From: Actinocatenispora sera
GTDB lineage: Bacteria > Actinomycetota > Actinomycetes > Mycobacteriales > Micromonosporaceae
DNA: 64,000 nucleotides
Direction of reading: 5' to 3'
NCBI RefSeq assembly: GCF_018324685.1
Contig: NZ_AP023354.1
Coordinates: 1,240,001 to 1,304,000, forward strand
The notes under the pieces are model-generated. The model did not search any database. It saw only the letters and a list, made by a program, of their open reading frames with translations, and was not told the DNA's origin. Below, in pieces: positions 40,809 through 51,130 of this stretch. Positions within the stretch are counted from its first letter, which is position 1; each line of letters starts with the position of its first letter. A program made the position numbers and the translations under genes.

Positions 40809-41213
40809 GCTGGCGTGTCGGCGGCACGGCCGGTGCGGTGGACGGACTGCTGCGGTGCCGGGGAAAGGAGTCAGGCCGCCCCCCGTTCGGCCCGGATCCT
40901 GCACCCGGCACCGGCAGCAACCGCACAACGATCGTGCGGGCCGGTAACGGCCCGGGCCAGGAAGTACGACATGCAGTTTCGTTGCCGTCCGTAGTTTCCC
41001 GCTGGTAACAAGCCCGTTTTGACCTGGATAGTGGCTTCGGTACTGGTGTCCGGTTCGGCGTGCCGCGCCGACGATGCGGCATGCCGGCCACCGGGTTTCG
41101 TCCGGCCGGCGCCGCGAGGCGTCCCGGAACGCGCGGCGCGGGCCGCCCGGTCGGTGGGACACCGGGGTACCCTAACGATCGTTCAAGCCGATACCGGAAC
41201 GGCAGGAGGGCAC
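40809..41213. other. Promoter region of the biotin carboxylase / HMG-CoA lyase operon
   Basis: 405 bases without a gene. It holds the operator at 41168-41185 and the ribosome site AGGAGGG at 41204-41210. TACCCT (41168-41173) fits a -10 TANNNT hexamer, which would place the palindrome at the transcription start. A less GC-rich stretch at about 40970-41030 is otherwise featureless. Confidence 0.5.
41168..41185. promoter_or_regulatory. Operator shared by the two acyl-CoA catabolic operons (copy 1)
   Basis: TACCCTAACGATCGTTCA, with the perfect palindromic core AACGATCGTT (41174-41183), is identical over 18 bases to 48364-48381 upstream of the carboxyltransferase gene. The A/T-edged, CGATCG-centred palindrome is the type of site bound by TetR regulators of fatty-acid and acyl-CoA genes. 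It lies 28 bases before the start codon. Confidence 0.8.
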
Positions 41214-42569
41214 GTGATCGAGTCGCTGCTGATCGCCAACCGCGGGGAGATCGCGCGCCGGGTCATCCGGACCGCGCGCCGGCTCGGGGTGCGCACCATC
41301 GCGGTGCACTCCGAGCTGGACGCCGACCTCCCGTTCGTGGCCGAGGCGGACGAGGCGGTCGACATCGGCGCGCCCCAGGCGTACCGGAACGCCGACGCGA
41401 TCCTTTCCGCGGCCCGGAAGACCAACGCCGTGGCGATCCACCCCGGGTACGGCTTCCTGTCCGAGAACGCGGACTTCGCCCGCGCGGTCGCCGACGCGGG
41501 CCTGGTCTGGGTCGGTCCGCCCGCCGATGCGATCCAGCAGATGGGCGACAAGATCAACGCGCGGAACCTGATGGCCGCGGCCGGCGTCCCGGTCTCGCCG
41601 GGTACCACCACGCCGCTGGCCGGCGTGGACGCCGCGGTCGAGGCGGCCCGGGCGATCGACTACCCGGTGATGGTGAAGGCCGCCGCGGGCGGCGGCGGGA
41701 TGGGCATGGCCGCCGCGGCCGACGAGGCCGAGCTGCGCGCACAGTACGAGAAGGTCACCGCGTTCGCGGAGCGGATGTTCGGCGACGGCAGCGTGCTGAT
41801 CGAGCGGTACTTCCCGCGGGTGCGGCACATCGAGGTGCAGATCCTCGGCCTGGCCGACGGCCGGGTCGTCGCGCTGGGCGAACGCGAGTGCTCGGTGCAG
41901 CGGCGCAACCAGAAGGTCGCCGAGGAGGCGCCGTCGCCGGCGGTGACCCCGGAGCTGCGGGCCCGGCTGCTCGGCGCTGCGCAGCTCGCGGGCGAGACCG
42001 TGGACTACCGCAACGCCGGTACGGTCGAGTGCCTGCTCGACCCCGACTCCGGCGACTTCTTCTTCCTGGAGATGAACACCCGGCTGCAGGTCGAGCATCC
42101 GATCACCGAGGCGACGCTGGGCATCGACCTGGTCGAGGCGCAGCTGCGGATCGCGTCCGGCGAGGACCCCGGCTTCGACCCGGCGGCGCTTTCGATCACC
42201 GGCCACGCGCTGGAACTGCGGGTCAACGCCGAGGATCCGAAGCGGTTCCTGCCCGGCCCCGGCCCGGTGCGCACCTGGGTCGAACCCACCGGCGACGGAG
42301 TCCGCGTCGACGCCGGCTACGCGGCCGGCACCACCGTGACCCCGGCGTACGACTCGCTGCTGGCGAAGTTGATCGTGTCCGGCCCGGACCGCGACACCGT
42401 GCTCGCGCGGGCCCGCCGGGCGGTCGCCGAGTTCCGGATCGAGGGGCCGAAGAACAACCTGCCGTTCTTCGCCGAACTGCTGGACAACGCCGAGTTCGTC
42501 GCCGGGGCGTACGACACCGGCATCATCGGCCGGATGCGCGCACCGTCCACGAAGGAAGGACAGCGATGA
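41214..42569 (+). CDS. Acyl-CoA carboxylase biotin carboxylase subunit (no biotinyl domain)
   Basis: 451 residues from GTG 41214 (AGGAGGG upstream). It catalyses ATP-dependent carboxylation of biotin. SLLIANRGEIARRVIRTARRLG at the start, the ATP-grasp loop MVKAAAGGGGMGMA (about residues 154-167), EVQILGLADGRVVALGERECSVQRRNQKVAEEAPS (about 205-240), FLEMNTRLQVEHPITE (about 284-299) and RVNAEDPKRFLPGPG (about 337) are all intact. Unlike most actinobacterial AccA/MCC alpha chains (about 590-660 residues) it ends right after the biotin carboxylase domain, with no biotinyl Met-Lys-Met motif. The carrier must come from another gene. It overlaps the HMG-CoA lyase start (ATGA). Confidence 0.93.
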   Translation: MIESLLIANRGEIARRVIRTARRLGVRTIAVHSELDADLPFVAEADEAVDIGAPQAYRNADAILSAARKTNAVAIHPGYGFLSENADFARAVADAGLVWVGPPADAIQQMGDKINARNLMAAAGVPVSPGTTTPLAGVDAAVEAARAIDYPVMVKAAAGGGGMGMAAAADEAELRAQYEKVTAFAERMFGDGSVLIERYFPRVRHIEVQILGLADGRVVALGERECSVQRRNQKVAEEAPSPAVTPELRARLLGAAQLAGETVDYRNAGTVECLLDPDSGDFFFLEMNTRLQVEHPITEATLGIDLVEAQLRIASGEDPGFDPAALSITGHALELRVNAEDPKRFLPGPGPVRTWVEPTGDGVRVDAGYAAGTTVTPAYDSLLAKLIVSGPDRDTVLARARRAVAEFRIEGPKNNLPFFAELLDNAEFVAGAYDTGIIGRMRAPSTKEGQR

Positions 42570-43480
42570 CCGAGCTGCCGGCGCGGGTGTCGATCCGCGA
42601 GGTCGGCCCGCGAGACGGGCTGCAGAACGAGGACCCGGTCCCGACCGAGGCCAAGATCCGGCTGCTGGATGCGTTGCCGCGCACCGGAATCCGCCGGATC
42701 GAGGCGGTCAGCTTCGTGCACCCCAAGGCGATCCCGCAGATGGCCGACGCGGACGAGGTGTGGTCGGGCAGCAGCCACGACCCGGCCGTCCGCTACTCCG
42801 CGCTGGTGCCCAACTCGCGCGGCGCGCGGCGGGCGCTGGCCGCCGGGTTCACCGAGATCGAGGTCGTCGTGTCGGCCAGCGACACCCACAACCGGAAGAA
42901 CGTGAACCGGTCCACGGACGAGTCGCTGGACGACATCGCCGAGCTGATCTCGTTGCTGCACGGCGAGAACGCCCGCGTCGAGGTGATCGTCGCGACCAGT
43001 TTCGGCTGCCCGTACGAGGGGGACGTGGCGCCGGCGCGGGTCGCGTCCATCGTGGACCGGGTGGTCGCCGACGGCGCCGACCGGGTCGCGTTCGGCGACA
43101 CCACCGGGATGGCCACACCGCGCCGGGTCACCGAGCTCGTCACCGCGGTACGCGACCGGCAGCCGGACATCCCGATGCTGCTGCACTTCCACAACACCCG
43201 CGGGACGGGGCTGGCGAACATCCTGACCGCGATGCAGCTGGGCGTCACCGAGTTCGATGCGAGCATCGGTGGCCTGGGCGGCTGCCCGTACGCGCCGGGC
43301 GCCACCGGCAACGTGGCCACCGAGGAGGTCGTGCACATGCTGCACGACATGGGCATCGAGACCGGCATCGACCTCGACGCGCTGGTCGAGGTGGCGGCGC
43401 TGGCGCAGGACATCGTCGGCAAGGAACTGCCGTCCGGTGTGCTCCGGGCCGGCCCCCGCTACCGCACCATCCCCGCCTGA
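42566..43480 (+). CDS. Hydroxymethylglutaryl-CoA lyase
   Basis: 304 residues. It cleaves HMG-CoA to acetoacetate and acetyl-CoA, the last step of leucine breakdown. REVGPRDGLQNED (residues 10-22, metal-binding Asp and catalytic Arg) begins the TIM barrel. SASDTHNRKNVNRS, HFHNTRGTGLANILTAMQLG (metal-binding His pair, about residues 206-225) and the signature GGLGGCPYAPGATGNVATEE (about 232-251, active-site Cys) all match HMG-CoA lyase and not the related isopropylmalate synthases. The ATG overlaps the biotin carboxylase stop by four bases. Confidence 0.96.
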   Translation: MTELPARVSIREVGPRDGLQNEDPVPTEAKIRLLDALPRTGIRRIEAVSFVHPKAIPQMADADEVWSGSSHDPAVRYSALVPNSRGARRALAAGFTEIEVVVSASDTHNRKNVNRSTDESLDDIAELISLLHGENARVEVIVATSFGCPYEGDVAPARVASIVDRVVADGADRVAFGDTTGMATPRRVTELVTAVRDRQPDIPMLLHFHNTRGTGLANILTAMQLGVTEFDASIGGLGGCPYAPGATGNVATEEVVHMLHDMGIETGIDLDALVEVAALAQDIVGKELPSGVLRAGPRYRTIPA

Positions 43481-45462: not shown

Positions 45463-46716
45463 ATGGGCGACCGGACGCGAGGCGGAGAGCGCGACCCGCG
45501 CTGCTGCGCACCCGCGACCGCGCGCCGCTCCCGCGCCCTTCGGTACGGCCTGCGGGCCCTCGTCCTCGCCGGCGCCGCGAGTGCCGCCTGGTTCCTGGGC
45601 AGCCAGGTCGCCAGCGCCTCGCCCACGCACGACGACAGCGCCCCGGCGCCGAGCTGCCAGGCCGGTCTGCTCCCGGCCACCACGCACGCCGTCGGTTCGA
45701 CGCTGCACAGCCTGACCGCAGGCGACAACCAGACTTCCGGCGGTACCGCCGCCGGAGACGAGACGTGCGACCGGCCTGCCGCCGGCTCGCACCACGGGAA
45801 CGCCCCGCGCACCGCACCGGTCGCCAACTCCACGTGCTCGGCGGACGCCGCCCAGCACGGTGCGGCTGCGCCGACGAACCCGCAGGCCGGCCCGGCCTGC
45901 ACCCGGCCGACCCGTCCGTCGACGGACTCGGCCACCACCCCGGCCGGCGAACCAGCCGCCGGGGCATCCGGACCGGCGCCGCTCGGCCAACTGGCCGACG
46001 CGACCCGTCCCGTGCTCGGACCGGTGGCGGACGCGACGCGTCCGGTGACCGGGCCTGTGACGACCGCGGTGGGACCGATCGCCGGTGGGCTCAACCAGAG
46101 CCCGGTGATCGGCGCACTGGCGGCCGTCACCCGACCCGTCACCTCGACCGTCGCAGCCACCACGCGGCCCGTTACGGACACCCTGACCGGCCCACTCGTC
46201 TCTGCCACGCGCCCGGTGACCGGCTTGTTGGGCGCCGTCGTGCATCCGCTCCCAGGGATGGCCGACGGCGTTGCGACCCCGGTGACAGGCGTGCTGACGG
46301 GTGGTTCCGATCCGCTGTCCGGATTCGGCGTGCCGATCCTCGCGGCGCCGCACCAGGCGCCGTGGCTGGGTGGGCACCTGCCCGCCGGTGGGCTTGCCCA
46401 CCCGGCGGTACCGGCGTCGCGCTGCGCGTCGCACCCGTTCGCGACCTGGACGGGTACCGAAGCGGCCAGTGCCGGCTTCCGGTCTCCCGGTACCGGCTAC
46501 CCGGCACCGGGAACCCCCGCGCCCGCGCCACTGGGTACGGGGATCACCAGCGGAGGCTCCGCCGTCTCGGCGGCCTCCTCCCCGCACGGCGGTGCCTTCG
46601 CACCGACCGGGGCGTACGCCGCGATCGGAGACCAGGCCCTGCGGGTCCGGCCGGCCGCGGCACAGATCGGGCTGCCTCGCCTTTCCGAGGCCGACCCGGT
46701 CGTCTCACCGGACTGA
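45463..46716 (+). CDS. Exported Ala/Thr/Pro-rich protein with ATRPVT repeats
   Basis: 417 residues. A basic N-terminus followed by LRYGLRALVLAGAASAAWFLGSQVASAS (about residues 26-53) is a signal peptide or membrane anchor. The mature part is poor in hydrophobic core and rich in Ala, Thr, Pro, Gly and Ser. Around residues 175-275 a degenerate repeat recurs about every 10-18 residues: LADATRPVLGPV, VADATRPVTGPV, AAVTRPVTSTV, AATTRPVTDTL and SATRPVTGLL. Six Cys occur in the mature part. No sortase LPxTG or catalytic motif was seen. It precedes the chaplin-like gene by 181 bases on the same strand and probably belongs to the same cell-surface function. Confidence 0.8.
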   Translation: MGDRTRGGERDPRCCAPATARRSRALRYGLRALVLAGAASAAWFLGSQVASASPTHDDSAPAPSCQAGLLPATTHAVGSTLHSLTAGDNQTSGGTAAGDETCDRPAAGSHHGNAPRTAPVANSTCSADAAQHGAAAPTNPQAGPACTRPTRPSTDSATTPAGEPAAGASGPAPLGQLADATRPVLGPVADATRPVTGPVTTAVGPIAGGLNQSPVIGALAAVTRPVTSTVAATTRPVTDTLTGPLVSATRPVTGLLGAVVHPLPGMADGVATPVTGVLTGGSDPLSGFGVPILAAPHQAPWLGGHLPAGGLAHPAVPASRCASHPFATWTGTEAASAGFRSPGTGYPAPGTPAPAPLGTGITSGGSAVSAASSPHGGAFAPTGAYAAIGDQALRVRPAAAQIGLPRLSEADPVVSPD

Positions 46717-46897: not shown

Positions 46898-48103
46898 ATG
46901 AAGACATGGGTTCGTCGTACCGCTCGGGTCGGGATCCTCTCCGCAGGGTTCCTGCTGGCCGGCGCCAGCATGGCGCACGCCAGCAACGCGGTCTCCGCCG
47001 GCAACGACGGGATCGGCAACGGTACCCAGGTGGTCGCCCCCGTGCAGGTTCCCGCGAACGTGGCCGGCAACGGCGTCGGTGTCGCCGGCGTCGGGCTGGG
47101 CGTGAACGGCAGCAGCACCTCGGTCGCGGACCGCGCCGAGAGCACCAACCTGGTGTCCGCCGACAACAAGGGCATCGTGAACGGCACGCAGGCCAACGTC
47201 CCGGTCCAGGTGCCGGCGAACGTGGCCGGCAACGGGGTCGGCGTGGCCGGCGTCGGCATCGGCGTGAACGGCTCCAGCACCGCGGTGGCGCACCGGGCCG
47301 AGTCGGCGCAGGAGAGCACCGACATGGTGTCGGCCGGCAACATGGGCATCGGCAACGGCACCCAGGTCAACGTGCCGATCCAGGTGCCGCTGAACGTCTG
47401 CGGCAACGGCGTCGGCGTGCTGGGTGCCGGGATCGGCGTCTCCGGCGACTGCACCAGCGTCGCCGCCGCGCAGGAGTCTGCGTACGCGCCGGAGAGCACC
47501 AACATGGGCTCGGTGGGCAACGCCGGGATCCTGAACGGCACCCAGGTCAACGCCCCGATCCAGGTTCCGGTCAACGTCTGCGGCAACGGCGTGGGCGTGC
47601 TCGGCCTGGGCGCCGGCGTGTCCGGCGACTGCACCTCGGTGGCGCACCGTGCCGAGTCGGCGCAGGAGAGCACCAACATGGTGTCCGCCGCCAACAAGGG
47701 CATCCTGAACGGCACCCAGGTGAACATGCCGATCCAGGTTCCGGTGAACGTGTGCGGCAACGGCGTCGGCGTGCTGGGTGCCGGGATCGGCATCTCCGGC
47801 AACTGCGGCGCGGCCGCGCTGTCGGGCGAGGGCGGCCACCAGGGTGGCGGCTACCACTCGATGGCGACCTCGACCGAGGGTGCGGAGGCCGCGAAGCCGG
47901 CCAAGACCGCGAGCACGCTGCCCGCGATCGCCTCGTCGCACGGCACCGACATGGTCTCCGCCGGCAACTCCGGGATCGCCAACGGCACCCAGGTGCACGC
48001 GCCGATCCAGGTTCCGGTGAACGTGGCCGGCAACGGCGTCGGCGTGCTCGGCGTCGGCGTGGGCGTCAACGGCAGCTCGACCGCGGTCGCCGCCCAGCAC
48101 TGA
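46898..48103 (+). CDS. Secreted protein of six tandem chaplin-like domains
   Basis: 401 residues. Residues 1-29 are a signal peptide (RRTARVGILSAGFLLAGASMAHA). The rest is six 47-residue units at 30-76, 84-130, 142-188, 202-248, 260-306 and 351-397, each of the form (V/S)xxGNxGIxNGTQVxxPIQVPVNV(C/A)GNGVGVLGxGxGVSG. Units 3-5 have Cys pairs (168/185, 228/245 and 286/303), the spacing of the disulphide in chaplins. Units 1, 2 and 6 have Ala and Ser instead. Chaplins coat aerial hyphae and spores with amyloid fibrils. Typical chaplins have one or two such domains, and long ones end in a sortase motif; this one ends VAAQH with no anchor. Function as a hydrophobic surface layer is inferred. Confidence 0.85.
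   Translation: MKTWVRRTARVGILSAGFLLAGASMAHASNAVSAGNDGIGNGTQVVAPVQVPANVAGNGVGVAGVGLGVNGSSTSVADRAESTNLVSADNKGIVNGTQANVPVQVPANVAGNGVGVAGVGIGVNGSSTAVAHRAESAQESTDMVSAGNMGIGNGTQVNVPIQVPLNVCGNGVGVLGAGIGVSGDCTSVAAAQESAYAPESTNMGSVGNAGILNGTQVNAPIQVPVNVCGNGVGVLGLGAGVSGDCTSVAHRAESAQESTNMVSAANKGILNGTQVNMPIQVPVNVCGNGVGVLGAGIGISGNCGAAALSGEGGHQGGGYHSMATSTEGAEAAKPAKTASTLPAIASSHGTDMVSAGNSGIANGTQVHAPIQVPVNVAGNGVGVLGVGVGVNGSSTAVAAQH
46985..48088 (+). repeat. Six 141-bp coding repeats (chaplin-like units)
   Basis: The six 47-codon units are highly similar at DNA level. The stretch coding for GTQV..PIQVPVNV is the most conserved. Linkers of 7-44 residues, including two near-identical copies of AHRAESAQES, separate them. 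The pattern indicates growth by internal duplication. Confidence 0.85.
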
Positions 48104-48418: not shown

Positions 48419-49954
48419 GTGTCGATGCCGGAGGACCCAGCTGCCGAGCTGGCACGACTGCGCAAGCGGATCGCCGCGGGCGGCGCCGAGAAGTACCACG
48501 AGGCGAACCGGGGCCGCGGCAAGTTGTTCGCCCGCGAGCGGGTGGCGCTGCTGGTCGACGACGGCAGCTTCGTCGAGGACGGGATGCTCGCCAACGCCCA
48601 GACCGACGGGCTGCCCGCGGACGGCGTGATCACCGGCCGGGCCACCGTCGACGGGCGCCCGGTGCGGCTGATGGCGAACGACTCGACGGTCAAGGCCGGC
48701 TCCTGGGGCGCCCGTACCGTCGAGAAGATCATCCGGGTCATCGAGCGGGCGTACGCCGAGCGTGTGCCGATGATCTACCTGGTCGACTCGGCCGGTGCCC
48801 GGATCACCGACCAGGTCCAGCTGTTCCCGGGCCGGCGCGGCGCCGGGCGCATCTTCCACGAGCAGGTGCGCGCGTCCGGGTCGATCCCGCAGATCTGCGC
48901 GCTGTTCGGGCCGAGCGCCGCGGGCGGTGCGTACATCCCGGCGTTCTGCGACGTGGTCGTGATGGTCGAGGGCAACGCCTCGATGTACCTCGGGTCGGAC
49001 CGGATGGTCGAGATGGTCACCGGCGAGAAGACCACGCTGGAGGCGATGGGCGGCGCCGCCGTGCACTGCAAGGAGTCCGGCGTCGGGCACTTCCTGGTCT
49101 CCGACGAACCGGCCGCGCTGGACGTGGTCCGCCGCTACCTGAGCTACCTGCCGTCGAACTGGCGGCAGCAGCCACCGAGCGCCGAGCCGGTCGCCGCGCC
49201 GGACGTGGACCTCGCGAAGCTGGTCCCGGTGTCCGAGCGGCAGGCGTTCGACATGCGCCGGTACGTCAAGGGGCTTGTCGACGCCGACTCGTTCTTCGAG
49301 ATCCAGGCGCTGTGGGCGCGCGAGGTGACGATCGGCTTCGGCCGGCTGAACGGCGAGGGGGTCGGCGTCGTCGCGAACAACTCGATGTTCAAGGGCGGCG
49401 TGCTGTTCATCGACTCGGCCGACAAGGCGACCCGGTTCATCGAGCTGTGCGACGCGTTCAACGTGCCGCTGCTGTTCCTGTCCGACGTGCCCGGCTTCAT
49501 GGTCGGTACCGCGGTGGAGAAGGCCGGCATCATCCGGCACGGTGCGAAGATGATCAGCGCGGTCGCCCGCGCCACCGTGCCGAAGATGTGCGTGGTGGTG
49601 CGCAAGGCGTACGGGGCGGGGCTGTATGCGATGGCCGGCCCCGGGTTCGAGCCGGACGCGACGATCGCGCTGCCCACCGCGAAGATCGCGGTGATGGGTG
49701 CGGACGCGGCCGTCAACGCGGTGTACGCGAAGAAGATCGCCGCCCTTCCGGAGGACGAGCGCGCGGACTTCGTCGCGGCCCGGCGCGCCGAGTACGAGGC
49801 GGACATCGACGTGATGCGGTTGGCCGGCGAGCTGGTGGTGGACACCGTGGTCGAGCCGGCCGAGCTACGCGGCGAGCTGATCGCGCGGTACGCGGCGGCC
49901 GCCGGCAAGGGCCGCGACTTCGCCGACCGTCGCCACGGCGTCACCCCGGTCTGA
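48419..49954 (+). CDS. Acyl-CoA carboxylase carboxyltransferase (methylcrotonyl-CoA type)
   Basis: 511 residues from GTG 48419. It transfers the carboxyl group from biotin to the acyl-CoA. Both crotonase-fold halves are present. LVDSAGARITDQVQLFPGRRGAGRIFHEQVRASGSIPQICALFGPSAAGGAYIPAFCDVVVMVEG (about residues 120-185) shows the AGGAYIPAxxD pattern of methylcrotonyl-CoA carboxylase beta. PFLFLSDVPGFMVGTAVEKAGIIRHGAKMI and the RKAYGAGLYAMAGPGFEPD segment follow. The propionyl-CoA type has different oxyanion-loop residues, so a methylcrotonyl or geranyl-type substrate is more likely. Partners: the biotin carboxylase at 41214 and an unlinked carrier. Confidence 0.9.
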   Translation: MSMPEDPAAELARLRKRIAAGGAEKYHEANRGRGKLFARERVALLVDDGSFVEDGMLANAQTDGLPADGVITGRATVDGRPVRLMANDSTVKAGSWGARTVEKIIRVIERAYAERVPMIYLVDSAGARITDQVQLFPGRRGAGRIFHEQVRASGSIPQICALFGPSAAGGAYIPAFCDVVVMVEGNASMYLGSDRMVEMVTGEKTTLEAMGGAAVHCKESGVGHFLVSDEPAALDVVRRYLSYLPSNWRQQPPSAEPVAAPDVDLAKLVPVSERQAFDMRRYVKGLVDADSFFEIQALWAREVTIGFGRLNGEGVGVVANNSMFKGGVLFIDSADKATRFIELCDAFNVPLLFLSDVPGFMVGTAVEKAGIIRHGAKMISAVARATVPKMCVVVRKAYGAGLYAMAGPGFEPDATIALPTAKIAVMGADAAVNAVYAKKIAALPEDERADFVAARRAEYEADIDVMRLAGELVVDTVVEPAELRGELIARYAAAAGKGRDFADRRHGVTPV

Positions 49955-49981
49955 CCGGCCATCCACGAAGGAGCGTCCACA

Positions 49982-51130
49982 ATGGAGTTCAGGCTCAGCG
50001 AGGAGCAGGCGGCACTCCGGGAGTCGGTGCGGGACTTCGCCACCGAGGTCGTCGCGCCGGTGATCGGCGACTGCTACGAGCGCGAGGAGTTCCCCTACCC
50101 AGTGGTGAAGCGGATGGGGGAGATGGGGCTGTTCGGCCTGCCGTTCCCGGAGGAGTACGGCGGGATGGGCGGCGACTACTTCGCGCTGTGCCTGGCGCTG
50201 GAGGAGCTGGCCCGGGTCGACTCGTCGGTGGCGATCACCCTGGAGGCCGGCGTTTCGCTGGGCGCGATGCCCATCTACCGGTTCGGTACCGAGGAGCAGA
50301 AGCGGCGGTGGCTGCCGCGGCTGTGCCGGGGTGAGGCGCTGGCCGGGTTCGGGCTGACCGAGCCGGGCGGCGGTTCGGACGCGGGGGCCACCAGGACCCG
50401 GGCCGAGCTCGACGGTGACAGCTGGGTCATCAACGGCAGCAAGTCGTTCATCACCAACTCCGGTACCGACATCACCGACTTCGTCACGGTCACCGCGGTC
50501 ACCGGCCGGCGGGCCGACGGCAGGCCGGAGATCTCGTCGATCCTGGTTCCCAGCGGTACCAACGGGTTCACCGTCGGCCCGAAGTACTCCAAGGTCGGCT
50601 GGTGCGCCTCCGACACGCACGAACTGTCCTTTGTGGACTGTCGGGTACCGGTGGCGAACCTGGTCGGCGAGCGCGGCCGCGGGTACGCCCAGTTCCTGCG
50701 GATCCTCGACGAGGGGCGGATCGCGATCGCCGCGCTGTCGGTCGGGCTGGCCCAGGGCTGCGTCGACGAGTCGGTGAAGTACGCCAAGCAGCGGTCGGCG
50801 TTCGGCCACGAGATTGGTGCCTACCAGGCGATCCAGTTCAAGATCGCGGACATGAAGCTGCGCGCGCACACCGCCCGGCTGGCCTACTACGACGCCGCCG
50901 CGCGGATGCTCGCGGGCGAGGACTTCAAGACCGAGGCGGCCATCGCCAAGCTCTACGCCTCCGAGTCGGCGGTCACCAACGCCCGCGAGGCGACCCAGAT
51001 CCACGGCGGGTACGGGTTCATGAACGAGTTCCCGGTGGCCCGGATGTGGCGGGACGCCAAGATCCTGGAGATCGGCGAGGGGACCAGCGAGGTGCAGCGG
51101 CTGCTGATCGCCCGCGACCTCGGCCTGTGA
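49982..51130 (+). CDS. Acyl-CoA dehydrogenase
   Basis: 382 residues. It oxidises acyl-CoA to 2-enoyl-CoA with FAD. FRLSEEQAALRESVRDFATEVVAP, LAGFGLTEPGGGSDAGATRTRAELDGD (about residues 118-144, FAD and substrate binding), the YAKQRSAFGHEIGAYQAIQFKIADM segment (about 265) and IHGGYGFMNEFPVARMWRDAKILEIGEGTSEVQRLLIARDL at the end are all typical. The Glu of GEGTSEVQ is present at the position of the catalytic base in short/medium-chain enzymes. Classical isovaleryl-CoA dehydrogenases have Gly or Ala there. It may therefore act on short branched chains other than isovaleryl-CoA. It lies 27 bases after the carboxyltransferase gene. Confidence 0.93.
   Translation: MEFRLSEEQAALRESVRDFATEVVAPVIGDCYEREEFPYPVVKRMGEMGLFGLPFPEEYGGMGGDYFALCLALEELARVDSSVAITLEAGVSLGAMPIYRFGTEEQKRRWLPRLCRGEALAGFGLTEPGGGSDAGATRTRAELDGDSWVINGSKSFITNSGTDITDFVTVTAVTGRRADGRPEISSILVPSGTNGFTVGPKYSKVGWCASDTHELSFVDCRVPVANLVGERGRGYAQFLRILDEGRIAIAALSVGLAQGCVDESVKYAKQRSAFGHEIGAYQAIQFKIADMKLRAHTARLAYYDAAARMLAGEDFKTEAAIAKLYASESAVTNAREATQIHGGYGFMNEFPVARMWRDAKILEIGEGTSEVQRLLIARDLGL

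Follow-up and report, generated by a model that had tools for sequence, protein, structure and literature searches.

The genome of Actinocatenispora sera encodes a secreted protein in which six chaplin units follow one another in a single chain that ends without a sorting signal. Our reading, to which we would give a probability of about 0.65, is that this protein is a tandem subunit of the hydrophobic sheath that covers aerial hyphae and spore chains, and that it is tethered via a separate one-unit anchored chaplin. The gene is found in the window (by which we mean the whole stretch of 64,000 nucleotides that was analysed) as an ORF of 401 aa, from ATG to TGA, located at 46898..48103 on the + strand in the window's ORF list. 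The protein is no one-off: the multi-unit variant of a known family that it represents is real, conserved and widespread.

Over the whole protein, the Pfam model of the chaplin domain (PF03777, ChpA-C) reaches 108.5 bits (cut-off 21; E=1.5e-31), and its match falls into six stretches when each is counted at E<=1, a limit that we set ourselves. Membership of the chaplin domain family is thus supported by a curated model. The first-pass annotation, made from the letters of the DNA, had described a signal peptide followed by six chaplin-like units and had named this HMM search beforehand as one test by which its description could be refuted; the match bears it out. When the genome was searched in six frames, units 2-6 each passed PF03777 on their own (E<=0.001), with scores between 23.3 and 33.3 bits against the cut-off of 21, and unit 1 alone had no match at that limit. 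All six are recovered by a profile that we built from four of the protein's own units and then widened on relatives, and that found no match in 1000 shuffled versions of the protein. Together with the PF03777 E-value, this led us to reject a repeat arisen by chance. No NCBIfam model matched the protein above a cut-off, the plasmid collection gave no match, and the promoter and terminator scans returned 0 each.

The chain opens with a likely export signal of 28 aa (46898..46981), recognised by eye from its basic start, hydrophobic core and AxA motif, with cleavage likely after AHA. Units 1 (46982..47143) and 2 (47144..47305) are Cys-free and read NVAG...NGSS. They are followed by three units with a Cys pair, units 3 (47318..47479) and 4 (47498..47659) reading NVCG...SGDC and unit 5 (47672..47839) reading NVCG...SGNC, and then, across a longer linker (47840..47944) seen as a gap between unit matches, by unit 6 (47945..48100), which is again Cys-free (NVAG...NGSS). 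All of these features lie on the + strand. The matched units are about 52-56 residues long, not 47 as first given, and are spaced by 54, 58, 60, 58 and 91 residues. The order of two free, three Cys-paired and one free unit had been read correctly, and the word "alternating" that headed the earlier description is wrong. The chain stops within unit 6, with no LPxTG or LAxTG pattern in the last 70 residues and no hydrophobic tail, and the claim that it has no sorting signal therefore stands. Three GN motifs per chaplin domain have been described (PMC13251363). By eye, only the middle one is retained in 6/6 units; the first aligns with NGT in 6/6, with the third position occupied by SGD (units 3 and 4), SGN (unit 5) or NGS (units 1, 2 and 6). 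The Cys pair typical of the chaplin domain is present in units 3, 4 and 5 and absent from units 1, 2 and 6.

Streptomyces coelicolor has two-domain chaplins that are anchored and one-domain chaplins that are free (PMC5618241), and long and short forms are described as occurring side by side in, apparently, all sporulating actinomycetes (PMC3079736). With the long chaplins ChpA-C of that species the six-unit protein shares secretion, tandem domains and the Cys pair (present in most ChpA-C domains and in three of the six units here); it has, however, neither their two-domain build nor their sorting signal. The C-terminal domain of ChpB also does without the pair (PMC13251363), like the Cys-free units here, so that the earlier statement that ChpE is the sole Cys-less case was incomplete; an anchored two-unit ORF (L136) from a Streptomyces-like genome shows the same lack in its C-terminal unit. 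The short chaplins ChpD-H resemble the protein in being secreted without a sorting signal, and ChpE in being Cys-free (PMC3079736), but they consist of a single domain after the signal peptide, whereas here six units are covalently linked. With PF03777 the units score 23-33 bits, whereas nearly all listed units of family f4 score 63-105 (one is at 43); the genomes of that family (genus g50) we infer to be Streptomyces-like from their many high-scoring chaplins and LAxTG tails. Since the units reach only these 23-33 bits, they have diverged from the Streptomyces type and shared behaviour is not assured.

Actinocatenispora is placed in the Micromonosporaceae (NCBI), a family in which aerial hyphae are rare, and is reported to produce them, with spore chains about 10 spores long (PMC6113628). 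In 4/4 genomes of the genus the six-unit protein is present and its units follow the order free-free-Cys-Cys-Cys-free; among named genomes, a scan returned two relatives, Actinocatenispora comari (97% identity) and A. rupis (74%). Cys loss by mere decay was considered and rejected, as the same units are Cys-free in 4/4 species of the genus. In the comparison with A. comari and with genome G050, the best match of each unit was the unit at the same position (12/12). Against A. rupis the same-position match was clearly the best in only 3/6 units, with a tie in one and another unit preferred in two, and the Cys class was nevertheless kept in 6/6 best matches. Because some of these matches cross position and none crosses Cys class, it seems that sequence was exchanged between units and that the Cys pattern was not affected. 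The dN/dS values of the six-unit gene against its three congeners were approximately 0.38, 0.25 and 0.40.

To see how common this form is we turned to the sampled genomes of the same family, named f1 in the genome collection used, a grouping that possibly follows another taxonomy than that of NCBI. PF03777 is present in at least 120 of the 200 sampled f1 genomes and in at least 15 of the 396 genomes of the phylum sample (own genome included in both), figures that are lower bounds because only part of the candidates of each genome was scored. Chaplin regions were fetched from 75 of the 120 matching f1 genomes, again with our own; these were the ones with the better listed matches, the other 45 being left unread. 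Mostly one region was taken per genome and the longer ORF was chosen, so the census leans to strong, long ORFs, and at least four short one-unit ORFs of 87 to 99 aa (in G148, G177, G056 and G110) were left out. With this bias, 77 of the 89 fetched ORFs have at least three units: four units are the most frequent number (31 ORFs), followed by five (27), three (14), one (nine), six (five) and two (three). Units with and without the Cys pair are mixed in 59 of these 77, and neither LPxTG nor LAxTG occurs in the last 70 residues of any of the 77. These multi-unit ORFs (L037-L039, L043-L055 and most of L059-L116) resemble ours in their three to six units, their lack of either motif and their frequent mixture of units, but unit number, order and linkers vary by genus, some end in a tail that is not a unit and others, unlike our protein, end in a unit bracketed by Cys. 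Tandem units are also found in three chaplin-domain ORFs of other families (L131, L132 and L133, with 6, 6 and 10 units), which differ from the six-unit protein in that every unit is Cys-free and in that L131 carries LALTG and L132 LASTG. The first-pass annotation had called the protein a form it did not know and had proposed a survey of copy number and Cys pattern in related genomes. The survey recovers the same form throughout the genus, and it also makes clear that the protein is neither unique nor an oddity, multi-unit chaplins being frequent in family f1. As to the literature, that judgement was apt: a search of titles and abstracts in the open literature gave no description of a chaplin with more than two units, though this search was partial and does not establish absence from print, and the available text of PMC4255298 mentions chaplin-like genes in a few other actinomycetes, without unit counts.

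The C-terminal signal of a sortase-anchored chaplin, which the six-unit protein lacks, is found instead on a separate one-unit chaplin of the same genome (L001), where the LPVTG motif, the hydrophobic stretch and the basic end are plain in the sequence. Its tail scores 24.2 bits with TIGR01167 (cut-off 15.9), a value that is weak alone because the same search, at the limit used, also matches 14/14 control genomes, nine of them above the cut-off. Such one-unit LPVTG chaplins are present in 4/4 genomes of the genus (g1 in the collection), and these four, with three of genus g18, are the only fetched ORFs with LPxTG (7/89, all one-unit). The fetched anchored ORFs of the Streptomyces-like type carry mostly LAxTG, and two have LPHTG. 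As far as sequences can tell, the layout is therefore inverted with respect to S. coelicolor, the anchored form having one unit and the free form six. The genome also encodes one sortase of class E (218 bits vs 160) and two of class F. The class E gene lies 20 kb downstream of the six-unit gene, beyond the window. In Actinoplanes missouriensis it was the class E enzyme, and not the four of class F, that mattered for anchoring and development (PMC13251363).

These data bear on the model first proposed for this protein, a self-polymerising, anchor-free coat that needs no covalent attachment and in which the Cys-free units act as flexible or differently folded spacers. It agrees with the absence of sorting motifs from the six-unit chain and from all the fetched ORFs with three or more units, as well as with the restriction of LPxTG, among the 89 fetched ORFs, to one-unit ORFs of two genera, and for the chain itself the lack of a covalent anchor holds. 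However, the one-unit LPVTG chaplin is present in 4/4 genomes of the genus, and since the A. sera genome has genes for both this protein and a class E sortase, it is simpler to suppose that the coat is tethered. Besides, the Cys-free units share a conserved core with the Cys units and so do not look spacer-like, and we consider the model unlikely. Next comes the view of the protein as a released surfactant that lowers the surface tension for the emergence of hyphae without being a lasting part of the coat, a role like that of ChpE. The missing anchor and the three Cys-free units, as in ChpE, would suit it, and lack of Cys has been proposed to favour a monomeric, surface-active ChpE (PMC3079736). 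Yet the Cys pair is kept in half of the units, and six linked units bear little resemblance to a small diffusible peptide, which makes this role improbable.

The distribution of cysteines is all-or-none in most units. Among 346 f1 units, in counts many of which stem from shared descent and are not independent, both Cys were present in 227, neither in 101, the first only in 0 and the later one only in 18. In each of the 18 exceptions, all of them C-terminal units, one Cys precedes the unit by 2-3 residues and another lies at the C-terminus or next to it. This new pair encloses the unit, as though a displaced disulphide now joined its two ends (L053, L071, L077, L079, L087-L089, L092-L096, L098, L104, L106, L107, L112 and L116). 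Apart from these 18, the 77 multi-unit ORFs showed no Cys outside their units over the part counted, which started 15 residues ahead of the first unit. The anchored one-unit proteins are less regular, with two further Cys behind the unit in L001 and a third Cys near the unit in L040. In 53 control units from other families both Cys were present in 30 and neither in 23, of which 22 belong to the three wholly Cys-free ORFs L131-L133. The pattern may also change within a genus. In genus g31, units 1 and 2 have their Cys in four of the five proteins and lack them in the fifth (L043), and two of the seven proteins of genus g44 differ at unit 2; at each difference the unit has two Cys or none. The two Cys-free units of L043 are the same two, 1 and 2, that are Cys-free in Actinocatenispora.

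Because the cysteines come and go in pairs per unit, a disulphide within each Cys unit is favoured over a bond between molecules. The pattern bears in this way on an unsettled point in print, as ChpF and ChpH homodimers in cell-wall extracts have led to the proposal of intermolecular disulphides (PMC3079736), while intramolecular ones are given as suggested elsewhere (PMC5618241). The least probable of the alternatives, a protein that would act as cross-linking hub of the coat through cysteine links between chains, could appeal to those homodimers, but against it stand the unit counts above, shared descent included, and the 18 bracketed C-terminal units, which are as a bond within the unit predicts. 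With three units of each kind, the six-unit chain makes the disulphide question directly testable. Reduction does not keep the chaplins of S. coelicolor from forming amyloid fibrils in vitro, and a Cys-less ChpH severely compromises aerial hyphae (PMC3079736).

Returning to the sheath of tandem subunits tethered by a one-unit chaplin, we infer the following scheme of where the protein is located, how it nucleates and assembles as an amyloid, how it is tethered and what state its disulphides are in. The six-unit chain would be exported and lose its signal peptide, and its covalently linked units, like the short chaplins of Streptomyces, would then become part of a sheath that is hydrophobic, probably amyloid-like, and covers aerial hyphae and spore chains. 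Since one chain brings six units together at once, it could serve as a ready-made nucleus, where Streptomyces uses one-unit proteins. The sheath would be fixed to the wall via the separate LPVTG chaplin, attached by one of the genome's sortases, and each Cys unit would be closed by its own disulphide, the Cys-free units assembling without one. In more general terms we propose, tentatively and with the odds rather against it, a second layout of the chaplin coat outside Streptomyces, in which the anchor, if any, would have one unit and a free chain of three to six would build the coat, the tandem linkage nucleating like separate short chaplins and each unit forming its own disulphide or none in an order kept by selection. 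The chaplin literature that we met concerns one- and two-domain proteins of Streptomyces, and the finding that another layout is frequent in a different actinobacterial family offers a natural comparison for coat nucleation and tethering.

Structure prediction gave an AlphaFold2 model of two units with a mean pLDDT of 30 (12 rows in the alignment) and one of the full mature protein with a mean pLDDT of 45 and a pTM of 0.52 (3 rows), in which the units show a repeated strand pattern. Foldseek of the latter against the PDB returned 39 rows, none at E<=0.001 (best E=0.37), and given this blank and the low pLDDT we claim no fold. Many of the 39 are presumably beta-helix proteins. With phmmer there was no match among PDB sequences at E<=1.

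Downstream of the chaplin gene lie an accD gene (48419-49954) and an acyl-CoA dehydrogenase gene (49982-51130), and homologues of this pair are present in 14 of the 16 long multi-unit chaplin loci, at a distance of about 5 kb in L049. The two loci without it are L052, which stops at the contig edge, and L054, which had no match. These shared neighbours argue for vertical descent of the chaplin gene in the family over a recent transfer. The genes at 41019-43480 and 48419-51130 (+ strand) read, by their sequences, like a biotin carboxylase, an HMG-CoA lyase, a carboxyltransferase and the acyl-CoA dehydrogenase, so that the chaplin gene sits among genes resembling a set for leucine or short-chain acyl-CoA breakdown. 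Directly upstream (45463-46716, + strand) is the gene of a secreted-looking protein of 417 aa with repeats rich in Pro, Val and Thr, for which no Pfam or NCBIfam family was found at E<=1. The other three Actinocatenispora genomes keep it at the same place, with 50 to 93% identity, and it is weakly matched in the chaplin loci L048 (31%) and L049 (28%).
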